DNA from: Streptomyces sp. V3I8
GTDB lineage: Bacteria > Actinomycetota > Actinomycetes > Streptomycetales > Streptomycetaceae
Reading direction: 5' to 3'
Length of the DNA stretch: 64,000 bases
Assembly (NCBI RefSeq): GCF_030817535.1
Contig: NZ_JAUSZL010000002.1
Coordinates: 4,836,001 to 4,900,000 of the forward strand
The notes under the pieces are model-generated. The model worked only from the letters and a program-made list of their open reading frames with translations, had not been told where the DNA came from and did not search any database. This document shows positions 12,724-17,097 of the stretch, one piece after another. Position 1 is the stretch's first letter. Each line of letters opens with the position of its first letter. Made by a program: the position numbers and the translations under genes.

Positions 12724-13875
12724 ATGACTCCTACGACGGAGACCACGGTCGGTATCGGCGGCGCCGCGGAGAGCACCGACATGGTGCTCAACATCGGGCC
12801 CCAGCATCCGTCCACCCATGGTGTGCTGCGGCTCAAACTCGTCCTCGACGGAGAACGGATCCAGCGTGCGGAGCCGGTGATCGGCTACATGCACCGCGGC
12901 GCGGAGAAACTCTTCGAGGCACGCGACTACCGGCAGATCATCATGCTGGCCAACCGCCACGACTGGCTGTCCGCGTTCTCGAACGAGCTGGGCGTGGTCC
13001 TCGGCGTCGAGCGGATGCTCGGCATGGAGGTGCCCCCGCGCGCGGTGTGGACCCGCACGCTCCTCGCGGAGCTGAACCGCGTCCTGAACCACCTGATGTT
13101 CCTCGGGTCGTACCCCCTGGAACTCGGCGGGATCACCCCGATCTTCTACGCGTTCACCGAGCGCGAGGAGCTGCAGCACGTCATGGAGGAGATCTCCGGC
13201 GGCCGCATGCACTACATGTTCAACCGGGTGGGCGGCCTCAAGGAGGACCTGCCGGCCGGCTGGACCACGCGCGTGCGTGCGGTGGTCTCCGGGGTGCGCT
13301 CCCGGATGGACCGGTTCGACGACCTGGTGCTCGGCAACGAGATCTTCCGCGGGCGGACGCGCGGCATCGGGGTGCTCTCCCCGGAGGCGGTGCACGGCTA
13401 CGGGGTGAGCGGGCCGATCGCGCGCGCCTCCGGTGTCGACTTCGACCTGCGCCGGGACGAGCCCTACCTCGCGTACGGGGAGCTGCAGGACACCCTGAAG
13501 GTCGTCACCCGCCAGGAGGGCGACTGCCTGGCCCGCTTCGAGTGCCTCCTGGAGCAGACCCACAACGCGCTCGACCTCGCGGACGCCTGCCTGGACCGGC
13601 TCGCGGAACTGCCCCCCGGCCCCGTCAACCAGCGGCTCCCGAAGGTCCTGAAGGCCCCCGAGGGCCACACGTACGCCTGGACCGAGAATCCGCTCGGCAT
13701 CAACGGCTACTACCTCGTCAGCAAGGGCGAGAAGACCCCGTACCGGCTGAAGCTGCGGTCGGCCTCGTACAACAACATCCAGGCGCTCGCCGAGCTGCTG
13801 CCCGGCACGCTGGTCGCGGACATGGTGGCGATCCTGGGGTCGCTGTTCTTCGTCGTCGGGGACATCGACAAGTAG
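12724..13875 (+). CDS. nuoD2: NuoD-like subunit (49-kDa family), stand-alone paralogue
   Basis: 383 residues, homologous along its length to the NuoD/Nqo4/NDUFS2 quinone-site subunit of complex I. Family motifs: [15 protein letters not shown] (23–37), MHRGAEKL (56–63), [35 protein letters not shown] at the C-terminus. His32 matches a quinone-ligating His and Arg58 matches the arginine that NDUFAF7 dimethylates in bovine NDUFS2 (Arg85), but the quinone-ligating Tyr of the LDY motif is Trp here (HDW, Trp81). No CxxC hydrogenase ligands are present. No other nuo gene is nearby, so this is a dispersed second copy. The convergent neighbour is a MidA/NDUFAF7 homologue. Confidence 0.9.
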
Positions 13876-13951
13876 GCCGGGCGCGCGGGGCGTCGACGAG
13901 CGGGGAGGCGGAGGGCGGGCGAGCGGCCCGGCCCGTCACCCGCTCACCCGC

Positions 13952-15028
13952 TCACCCACGGAGCCGGTCGCCGTCGGGCAGCGGGTCCGGGATCCCCACC
14001 GGCTGCAGCAGCCAGCCGAAGTCGCCCAGTCCGCCCGGGGCGGTCAGCTCGGCGGCCTCGCCCGCGCCCGCGAGGGCCCGTACGTAGGCCGCGGGGTCCG
14101 TGGAGGCCAGGGACAGGGGCGGGCGGTCCCCGCGCACGCCCAGCGCCCGCAGGGCCGCCCGCTGGCCCAGCAGCCGGCCGCCGGGCAGGACGCACGCGTC
14201 CAGCGCCACGTGGGCGGTGATGTCGCAGGAGCCGTCGGGCACGGGCGCCGTCTCCCGGCCCGCCCTGAAGCCCGTCAGCGTCCCGAAGGGCGGCCGGGCG
14301 CCCGCACGGTGCCCGTAGTCGACAGCGACGGCGAGTCCGCGGCCGAGACCCGCCACGGCGGCCGCCCAGGCGGCGTCCCTGGGACGACCGACCTCGGCAC
14401 GGAGGCCTTCGGTACCGAGGCCTTCGGTACCAAGGCCTTCGATACCGAGGTCCTCGGCAGGGGGGACGGGGGAGCCGTGCGCCATGAGCGGCCACCATCT
14501 CGCCAGCCACCGCGCGTCCGCCCCCGTCACCGGCTCCCCGAGGGACTCCGTCCCGTCCGCGCTCACCAGGACGACGCGGGGCACGCCGCGCGCGTCCACC
14601 TCGACCACGTCCACCGGCACGTTGTCGAGCCACTCGTTGGCGAACAGGAGCCCCTCGACGCCCGGCGGAGGCTGCGGGAGCCATGCGATCCGGGGGTCGA
14701 CGCCGGCGGGGCGGGCGGCGCGTTCGACCGCGTACCCGCGCGCGCGGGAGGCCACTTCGGCGGGCAGCGCCCCCAGGACGGCGGTCACCAGCTCGCCGCG
14801 TCCCGCGCCCAGGTCGACGAAGGCGAGTTCGGCGGGGTGGCCGAGCGCCTCGTCGACGAGCCCGAGCAGCCGGGCCACGGCCCCCGCGAACAGCGGTGAC
14901 GCGTGCACCGAGGTGCGGAAATGGCCCGCGGGCCCCTCCGGCCGCCGGTAGAAACCGGAAGGCCCGTACAGCGCCTCCTCGGTCGCCCGGCGCCATCCGC
15001 GCACCCCGTCCGCCGTCCCACACCGCAC
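13952..15028 (-). CDS. MidA/NDUFAF7-type SAM-dependent methyltransferase
   Basis: 358 residues, DUF185/MidA family. SAM motif I is [10 protein letters not shown] (71–80); the family signature [13 protein letters not shown] (about 131–143) matches the NExLDxxPV loop; [13 protein letters not shown] corresponds to the conserved N-terminal substrate segment, and VAVDYGH occurs later. Eukaryotic NDUFAF7 dimethylates an arginine of NDUFS2, the NuoD homologue. GTG at 15028 is chosen because GGAGG lies eight bases upstream; a longer frame starts at 15115. It converges on nuoD2 76 bp away. A 5-residue repeat (GLGTE-type) interrupts the C-terminal half. Confidence 0.87.
14402..14459 (-). repeat. 15-bp in-frame minisatellite in the MidA gene
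   Basis: Two identical copies plus two diverged copies of a 15-bp unit (GAGGCCTTCGGTACC on the plus strand), encoding [18 protein letters not shown] pentads. It lies in a loop region between conserved methyltransferase segments, so length changes would keep frame. Confidence 0.8.
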
Positions 15029-15164
15029 TGCGCCCGCCTCCGCCCGCCGTCGCCGTCGTCGCGCCAGGTTAAAGGCCGGATGCAGGGCGGCCTCCACCTT
15101 GGGGAGTACAAGCACCGGTCACGGATCGATCCTCCGGTTGACCCCTGCACACAACACGCTTCCC

Positions 15165-15177: not shown

Positions 15178-16383
15178 GTGCAGCGTCTCTATGACTTTCT
15201 CCGCAGGCACCCGACATGGGTCGACGGCTTCTGGGCCGTCGTCCTGCTCGGGATCTCGGTCATGAGCGGAACGTCCGGGCCGGAGAACTCCGCCGGTACC
15301 GATCATCTGGCCGTGACCCTCCCGATCACCTTCCTGCTGTGCCTGGTGATCGCGCTGCGCCGGCGTATGCCCGAGGCGATGCTGGTCCTGGGCGTCTCCA
15401 TGGGCGCGGCGCAGCTGGTGCTGGACATGTCGCTGGCGCCCGCCGACTTCGCGCTGCTGGTGATCACCTTCACGGTCGCCTCGAACGGCACCCGCTGGGC
15501 GTCCCGGCTCGCCCTGACGGCGGGCCTGTGCGCGGCTCCGCTGGCGCAGCTGCGCTGGCCGGAGGAGCAGCAGAGCGTCGGCGGCCAGATCGCGATAGTG
15601 GTCTTCCAGACGGTCCCGTTCGCCCTCGCCTGGGTCCTCGGCGACTCGCTGCGGACCCGCCGCGCCTACTTCGCGCAGCTGGAGGAGCGGGCCGCCCGGC
15701 TGGAGAAGGAGCGCGAGGCGCAGGCCAAGGTGGCCGTCGCCGCCGAGCGCGCCCGGATCGCCCGCGAGCTGCACGACGTGGTCGCGCACAACGTCTCGGT
15801 GATGGTGGTGCAGGCCGACGGCGCCGCGTACGTCCTCGACACCGCCCCCGACCAGGCCAAGAAGGCCCTGGAGATCATCTCCGGGACGGGCCGGCAGGCC
15901 CTCGCCGAGATGCGCCGCCTCCTCGGCGTCCTGCGCACCGGCGAGCACCAGGAGTCCGGCGAGTACGTGCCGCAGCCCGACGTGGAGCAGCTCGGCGACC
16001 TGATCGAGCAGTGCCGGGGCTCCGGCCTGCCCGTCGACTACAAGATCGAGGGCACCCCGCGCCCGCTGCCCAGCGGCGTCGAGCTGACCGCGTACCGCAT
16101 CGTGCAGGAGGCCCTCACCAACACCCGCAAGCACGGGGGGCCGAACACGGGGGCGAGTGTGCGCCTGGTCTACTTCGACGACGGGCTCGGTCTGCTCGTC
16201 GAGGACGACGGCAAGGGCGCTCCGCACGAGCTGTACGAGGAGGGCGGGGTCGACGGGCAGGGCCACGGCCTGATCGGTATGCGCGAACGCATCGGTATGG
16301 TCGGCGGCACCCTGGACGCCGGGCCGCGTCCCGGGGGCGGTTTCCGCATCAGCGCCCTGCTGCCGCTGAAACCCGCCCACTGA
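15178..16383 (+). CDS. NarL-type sensor histidine kinase
   Basis: 401 residues. About four to five hydrophobic segments (residues 15–150) with very short loops, suggesting intramembrane sensing. Then HisKA_3 with phospho-acceptor His199 in ARIARELHDVVAHNVSVM, followed by a HATPase domain (LTAYRIVQEALTNTRKH; GHGLIGMRER). Orthodox partner of the response regulator 42 bp downstream. The GTG at 15178 directly follows a -10 box, so the transcript is probably leaderless. The signal is unknown. Confidence 0.93.
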   Translation: MQRLYDFLRRHPTWVDGFWAVVLLGISVMSGTSGPENSAGTDHLAVTLPITFLLCLVIALRRRMPEAMLVLGVSMGAAQLVLDMSLAPADFALLVITFTVASNGTRWASRLALTAGLCAAPLAQLRWPEEQQSVGGQIAIVVFQTVPFALAWVLGDSLRTRRAYFAQLEERAARLEKEREAQAKVAVAAERARIARELHDVVAHNVSVMVVQADGAAYVLDTAPDQAKKALEIISGTGRQALAEMRRLLGVLRTGEHQESGEYVPQPDVEQLGDLIEQCRGSGLPVDYKIEGTPRPLPSGVELTAYRIVQEALTNTRKHGGPNTGASVRLVYFDDGLGLLVEDDGKGAPHELYEEGGVDGQGHGLIGMRERIGMVGGTLDAGPRPGGGFRISALLPLKPAH

Positions 16384-16425
16384 CACGTGCACGTATTCGA
16401 ATCCGTTCCGACCTGAGGACCTCCC

Positions 16426-17097
16426 ATGCCGATCCGCGTGATGCTCGTCGACGACCAGGTGCTGCTGCGCACCGGGTTCCGGATGGTGCTGGACGCCCAG
16501 CCGGACATGGAGGTCGTGGCCGAGGCGGGCGACGGCGTGGAGGCCCTGCAGGTGCTGCGCGGGAGCGACGTCGACGTGGTCCTGATGGACGTCCGCATGC
16601 CGAAGCTGGACGGCGTCGAGGCGACCCGCCGCATCTGCTCGGACCCGAACCCGCCGAAGGTGCTGATCCTGACCACCTTCGACCTCGACGAGTACGCCTT
16701 CTCCGGGCTCAAGGCGGGCGCCTCCGGCTTCATGCTCAAGGACGTGCCGCCCGGTGAGCTCCTCGCCGCGATCCGCTCCGTGCACAGCGGCGACGCGGTG
16801 GTGGCGCCCTCGACGACCAGGCGTCTGCTCGACCGCTTCGCGCCGATGCTGCCCAACGCCGGCAAGGAGCCCCAGCACAAGGAGCTGGAGCGGCTCACCG
16901 GGCGGGAGCGGGAGGTCATGATGCTGGTCGCGCAGGGGCTGTCCAACGGTGAGATCGCGGCCCGGCTCGTCCTCTCCGAGGCGACGGTCAAGACCCATGT
17001 GGGCCGCATCCTCACCAAGCTGGGCCTGCGTGACCGCGTCCAGGTGGTCGTCCTGGCGTACGAGACGGGTCTGGTGCGGGCCGGCGGGCAGGGCTGA
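16426..17097 (+). CDS. NarL/LuxR-family response regulator
   Basis: 223 residues. Receiver domain with phospho-acceptor Asp55 (VVLMDVRMP), the Thr of ILTTF and the Lys of FMLKD; C-terminal LuxR-type helix-turn-helix (LTGREREVMMLVAQGLSNGEIAARL, TVKTHVGRILTKLGLRDRVQ). GAGG lies eight bases before the ATG. It forms an operon with the upstream kinase. The regulator downstream is convergent and unrelated. Confidence 0.95.
   Translation: MPIRVMLVDDQVLLRTGFRMVLDAQPDMEVVAEAGDGVEALQVLRGSDVDVVLMDVRMPKLDGVEATRRICSDPNPPKVLILTTFDLDEYAFSGLKAGASGFMLKDVPPGELLAAIRSVHSGDAVVAPSTTRRLLDRFAPMLPNAGKEPQHKELERLTGREREVMMLVAQGLSNGEIAARLVLSEATVKTHVGRILTKLGLRDRVQVVVLAYETGLVRAGGQG

Follow-up and report, generated by a model that had tools for sequence, protein, structure and literature searches.

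The complex I of Paracoccus denitrificans is of the canonical type. An arginine in its D subunit is dimethylated (PMC3750175), and in mitochondria the methyltransferase NDUFAF7 has been shown by experiment to modify Arg85 of the corresponding subunit, NDUFS2 (PMC3829151). For the prokaryotic members of this family, MidA, function has so far only been inferred in silico, according to a 2025 paper (PMC12455994). The arginine belongs to a switch between subunits, in which a Thr in the NDUFS2 homologue goes with an Arg in the NDUFS7 homologue; the switch arginines of the two subunits occupy the same space near cluster N2 (PMC8042128).

Genes of the kind treated below are already in print for Streptomyces. 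The second nuo cluster of S. coelicolor, nuo2 (SCO4599-4608), has been described as devoid of C, D, E, F, G and L, and its function was called unclear in 2022 (PMC9239103); in S. ambofaciens, nuoD2 is separate from nuo2 (PMC8388888). As far as the consulted sections of these two accounts go, nuoD2 is not connected with the NuoB switch or with MidA, and a search of the open-licence PMC literature found no publication that relates bacterial MidA to NuoD2 or nuo2. A further relative is the 11-subunit complex I-like enzyme of, for example, Desulfitobacterium, encoded by a single operon, nuoABCDHIJKLMN, without EFG, for which ferredoxin has been proposed as donor (PMC11238625).

The locus described here shares with the mitochondrial system the enzyme family, its fold and the D-subunit arginine, but the complex is bacterial, its cluster appears to hold no NuoEFG and the D gene is split off, and the role of MidA is deduced rather than established by experiment. 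It resembles the P. denitrificans enzyme in having a bacterial D subunit with the arginine, which is modified in that species (PMC3750175). Like the 11-subunit enzymes it appears to lack EFG, and unlike them it has its D gene apart, together with MidA. At the position of the quinone-site Tyr, its D subunit carries Trp. MidA, NuoD and nuo2 are known kinds, and what is likely to be new is the Arg-type NuoD, its Trp81, and a split nuo2 with a probable modifier.

NuoD2 and MidA in the window

The window is the whole stretch of 64,000 nucleotides that was analysed, G000:C2:4836001-4900000 of a 9.3-Mb Streptomyces genome. The gene nuoD2 (12724-13875, + strand) encodes a protein matching the Pfam profile PF00346 (E 7.2e-71; 238.9 bits, cut-off 24) and the NCBIfam NuoD model NF004739 (377.5 bits, cut-off 360), while staying under the cut-offs of TIGR01962 (387.4 against 459.35) and NF008974 (391.5 against 522). 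It converges with midA (13952-15028, − strand), whose product matches PF02636 (53.2 bits, cut-off 23.3), with 76 bp between the two stops. A sequence-only reading of this DNA had placed a NuoD paralogue at that distance from a MidA-family gene, and the profile matches and measured stops bear it out. The midA frame stays open to a GTG at 15115 (ORF 13952-15115, − strand), and the likely start is the GTG at 15028, which has GGAGG upstream and lies near the end coordinate given in that reading.

No NCBIfam model matched the MidA ORF, and PF02636 finds this one locus in the genome. An AlphaFold2 model of the protein has a mean pLDDT of 84.1, with low confidence for residues 1–28 of the longer frame. 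In a fold search of the PDB, all six matches of this predicted structure below E 0.001 are MidA/COG1565 structures (4f3n, 4g67, 5ztz, 5zu0 and two chains of 1zkd; E 1.3e-19 to 3.2e-18), weaker matches being to PRMT5 and other methyltransferases. The match to the Dictyostelium MidA structure 5ztz (E 2.4e-19) is that of a distant relative, with 17% identity to the characterised enzyme. A profile built from a 20-row MidA alignment agrees with this (4f3n 4.8e-24, 1zkd 3.1e-14, 5ztz 2.9e-11). In the same alignment, G103 and G107 of the SAM loop are nearly invariant, and E161, L163, D164, P167, D266, Y267, T300 and V303 are invariant.

Divergent from midA lies a sensor histidine kinase gene (15178-16383, + strand; DUF7134, HisKA_3 and HATPase_c by Pfam), near it also a LuxR-type response regulator gene (16426-17097, + strand; Pfam). 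A histidine-kinase-like gene also adjoins MidA in four other loci (L124-L127), a pair resembling the one at 15178-17097 is found between MidA and NuoD2 in L121 and L122, and in L123, L143 and L145 a cytochrome P450-like ORF, recognised by eye, occupies that place.

A profile search of the genome with PF00346 finds two loci, NuoD2 and the NuoD of the main nuo operon (NuoD1), which are 36% identical over 421 columns. The main operon is ∼188 kb and nuo2 ∼230 kb away from NuoD2, which stands alone, as had been claimed. Of 101 genomes of the genus, 100 have NuoD2 with at least 86% identity.

The codon of Arg58, the proposed methylation site, is at 12895-12897 (+ strand), within an HRGAEK motif. This arginine aligns without gaps to residue 118 of the mouse NDUFS2 precursor, that is residue 85 once a presequence, which I take to be 33 residues long, is removed. 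It also aligns, again without gaps, to Thr64 of T. thermophilus Nqo4, which has been equated with human Arg85 (PMC3829151). The equivalence to NDUFS2 Arg85, first proposed from residue spacing, thus holds in both alignments. NuoD1 of the same genome has Thr at this position (GYLHTGIEK), so that the sole PF02636 gene of the genome adjoins the sole NuoD with the arginine. Across the class Actinomycetia, the NuoD2 arginine is present in 106 of the 107 locus rows, of which one genome may supply several; the exception, from G192, is a misaligned fragment of a broken gene whose second fragment shows Arg. Counted by genome, it is found in 96 of those read, the 97th being G192, broken at that place.

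The Arg/Thr switch and the nuo2 cluster

The second cluster of this genome, at about C2:5077290-5087417, holds A2, B2, C2, H2, I2, J2 and K2 by Pfam, together with L2, M2 and N2. The PF00346 profile search of the genome finds no D gene in it, and 50 nuo2 loci from the class are likewise without a D match, although most of those that are short end before or within H2. Unlike the S. coelicolor cluster as described in the consulted part of PMC9239103, it has a NuoC (PF00329, 113 bits) and a NuoL-like gene. The NuoC2 ORF (L049, C2:5078304-5079689) has its domain at residues 30–152 of 461, followed by a Pro/Ala-rich stretch of ∼300 residues.

The two clusters differ in the switch residue of NuoB, NuoB1 reading AGRV (Arg) and NuoB2 SGTV (Thr). 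With the D subunits, this gives Thr/Arg for NuoD1 and NuoB1, and Arg/Thr for NuoD2 and NuoB2. By switch residue, as read from the alignments, NuoD2 matches NuoB2 and not NuoB1. Among 83 genomes with a linked D/B pair there are 42 Thr/Arg pairs, 41 Arg/Thr pairs and nothing else; 32 of the Thr/Arg pairs are from the class, while the other classes contribute 10 Thr/Arg and 41 Arg/Thr. Among the loci read from the class, NuoB1 has Arg and NuoD1 has Thr in 30 of 30 genomes, and NuoB2 has Thr in all 50 locus entries, from 36 genomes. Since NuoD2 and NuoB2 are unlinked there, the class-wide match rests on each of the two being constant.

Of the 24 loci that match NuoD2 best in other classes, 15 have the NuoD2-type gene next to C2 or H2 in a nuo2-type cluster, and the remaining nine have no nuo neighbour within 1.5 kb. 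This, with the switch residues, is the main ground on which NuoD2 is assigned to nuo2, and the sequences are best read as making it, most likely, the missing D subunit of that cluster. The Arg of NuoB1 and the Thr of NuoB2 likewise indicate that NuoD2 most likely completes a separate nuo2 complex.

Adjoining nuo2 are two genes for a pyruvate/2-oxoacid:ferredoxin oxidoreductase (here called KorAB; POR and TPP domains), and KorAB-like genes are found in divergent orientation to nuo2 in many further genomes of the class. Of the three NuoF-type (PF01512) matches in the genome, one belongs to the main operon and none is near nuo2; the two outside both nuo clusters (C2:1684654-1685166 and C2:5785661-5786149) are possibly other electron-input modules. 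Between the KorAB-type genes and nuo2, regulator-like ORFs were noticed by eye (C2:5073031-5077191, L049); these are perhaps an AbrC-type system, such as adjoins nuo2 in S. coelicolor (PMC9739823).

Inheritance of NuoD2 and MidA

Among 197 genomes of the class, 85 have a NuoD2-type gene at E 1e-75 or better and 79 have PF02636. The first count gave both in 74 genomes, NuoD2 only in 11, MidA only in five and neither in 107 (Fisher's test 1.2e-35, kinship ignored). Inspection of all 11 NuoD2-only genomes revealed MidA near NuoD2 in four (G119, G264, G222 and G284), in the first two of which it is only a piece at a contig end. Three of the five MidA-only genomes were inspected: in G172 and G122 a NuoD2-type gene truncated at the end of the contig lies beside MidA, and in G166, which is 94% complete, no NuoD2 was found on the 13.4-kb contig that carries MidA. 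The piece from G172 is 83% identical to NuoD2; that from G122, 39% identical and about as close to NuoD1, was counted as NuoD2 for its HRG motif and its place. G114 and G202 (72% and 80% complete), still counted as MidA-only, both have NuoB2. The revised count is 80 with both, seven with NuoD2 only, three with MidA only and 107 with neither; as only discordant genomes were rechecked, and not the 107 concordant absences, the revision could only raise the agreement. The two genes agree in 187 of the 197 genomes observed, whereas 20000 shuffles of MidA within families average an agreement of 172 and never exceed 183; genomes within a family are still related, and this is not an exact probability.

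Five of the seven NuoD2-only genomes have a NuoD2 less than 50% identical to the query, and four of these five are at least 96% complete; the other two of the seven are 77% and 78% complete. In G210, G221, G231 and G271, all at least 96% complete, a divergent NuoD2 (40–47% identity) has the arginine, and no MidA was found. A profile search of the stretches fetched from the remaining NuoD2-only genomes revealed no distant MidA.

The two genes are also close together. In the 74 genomes first counted with both, they share a contig in 67 and are on different contigs in seven; on shared contigs, the Pfam and NuoD2 matches are at most 11 kb apart in 67 of 67, and at most 2 kb in 33. MidA is beside NuoD2 in 29 of 29 other loci fetched, these being the closest by NuoD2 score, so that the adjacency is not limited to this genome. 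By eye, bPH2-, DUF2520- and panC-like genes recur around the pair, and in such a conserved housekeeping neighbourhood the closeness is in part ordinary vertical synteny.

At the level of the phylum, PF02636 is found in 49 of 149 genomes, 43 of them outside the class. NuoD and MidA are on different contigs in 21 of these 43; in the other 22 they are on one contig, no more than 20.4 kb apart. In eight of 15 regions read, which were selected for this linkage, MidA is the next gene after nuoN2, in the same orientation, with 40–310 bp between the matched parts; J2 was unmatched in these eight by the search used, and in one the contig starts at C2. The genetic linkage of enzyme and presumed substrate, which the sequence-only reading drew from this one locus, is thereby extended to co-occurrence, closeness and, in other classes, a shared cluster.

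An Arg-type NuoD is present in 36 of the 37 MidA-bearing genomes from other classes that were read (of 43), the sole exception, G375 (L241, L279), having two strong PF02636 matches, only a Thr-type NuoD and an Arg-type NuoB. Reading 30 of the 94 other-class genomes without PF02636 gave 21 with an Arg-type and nine with a Thr-type NuoD. A strict rule that an Arg-type NuoD needs MidA is therefore refuted outside the class, and the arginine does not need MidA everywhere. MidA goes with the arginine, and the arginine can exist without a detected MidA, as in E. coli, where the D-subunit residue is unmodified (PMC3750175) and the control genome gave no PF02636 match.

In a NuoD tree of 73 chosen rows, several of them long, Actinomycetia NuoD2, the MidA-linked stand-alone NuoD of other classes and NuoD1 are each split off by a 100/100 branch. 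Support is weak (89/56) for a branch joining both stand-alone groups to the exclusion of the in-cluster NuoD, and one relocation of NuoD cannot be told from two.

Proposed maturation of NuoD2, and its quinone site

Taken together, these observations make it, in my assessment, quite probable that NuoD2 is the split-off D subunit of nuo2, and that its Arg58 is dimethylated by MidA before or while it joins NuoB2. The pair would then work together like its mitochondrial relatives, as the genome comparisons suggest. By analogy with the mitochondrial enzyme, I infer that the dimethylation would help NuoD2 to join NuoB2; the modified Arg58 would become part of the second shell of cluster N2, a place filled in the main complex I by the arginine of NuoB1. 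The gene neighbourhood points to the 2-oxoacid:ferredoxin oxidoreductase and ferredoxin as the probable electron source.

Three other explanations were weighed. MidA and NuoD2 may be neighbours through regional conservation only, MidA having another substrate. The recurrent bPH2-, DUF2520- and panC-like genes would fit this, as would the report that a Wolbachia MidA methylates DNA (PMC12455994) and the frequency in other classes of Arg-type NuoD without a detected MidA; but the two genes are present or absent together within families as well, and outside the class they lie close to each other at different sites, and also within one cluster, for which synteny is insufficient by itself. I consider this explanation unlikely. 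Still less likely is that MidA aids nuo2 assembly by binding NuoD2 with no methylation, and I give this the lowest weight of the three: the linkage data fit a chaperone equally well, yet the SAM loop and the invariant family residues are kept over the 20 MidA rows.

It is also improbable, to a degree between these two, that NuoD2 takes the place of NuoD1 in the main complex I, or that the two clusters form hybrids, with MidA marking the alternative form. Hybrid machinery of nuo and nuo2 has been suggested for S. coelicolor (PMC9239103), and the 36% identity of NuoD1 and NuoD2 speaks for an exchange. Against it, a role for NuoD2 in canonical complex I would require a NuoB partner without the switch arginine, and NuoB1 already has that arginine; no Arg/Arg or Thr/Thr pair occurs in the 83 genomes; and NuoD2-type genes are inside nuo2-type clusters in other classes. 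The interpretation first offered for this locus therefore survives in part: the pair is linked, with NuoD2 the only Arg-bearing NuoD of the genome, but the suggestion that NuoD2 replaces NuoD is not supported, since the Thr of NuoB2 matches NuoD2. The reading of NuoD2 as a stand-alone spare NuoD is likewise rejected on the switch and the in-cluster relatives.

A D subunit completing nuo2 would also differ from NuoD1 at the quinone site. NuoD2 keeps the quinone-site histidine (His38 of Nqo4) as His32, but in the alignment to Nqo4 the quinone-site Tyr87, a quinone ligand and proton donor (PMC5938582), is replaced by Trp81 (codon 12964-12966, + strand). This Trp is present in NuoD2 of 97 of 97 Actinomycetia genomes read, G192 included. 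In the Arg-type NuoD of other classes the residue is Trp (45 genomes) or Tyr (13 genomes), with G420 counted for both, and Thr-type NuoD has Tyr in 42 of 42. The Trp suggests a different quinone chemistry in the NuoD2 complex, and would speak against a simple swap with NuoD1. A wider proposal, which I advance only tentatively, is that bacterial MidA is dedicated to one lineage of complex I, dimethylating the NuoD arginine that replaces the NuoB arginine at N2 in a ferredoxin-driven 11-subunit complex, which, with Trp for the proton-donating Tyr, might reduce quinone or another acceptor by a different proton route.

The assignment of NuoD2 gives nuo2 a named missing subunit and a likely maturation step, and gives genetic grounds for testing whether bacterial MidA acts on NuoD. 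A genome that carries both an Arg-type and a Thr-type NuoD offers a built-in control for the effects of the arginine and its methylation on N2, and the natural Tyr-to-Trp variant makes the proton-donor role of Tyr87 testable.

Some variation was seen around these residues. The equivalent of Nqo4 His38 is lost in three divergent genomes of the class (G261, G271 and G280), and NuoD2 of G231 has lost the first His of the motif. In other classes, HRC replaces the HRG motif in the Arg-type NuoD of four genomes without PF02636 (G300, G314, G397 and G323; L299-L302).
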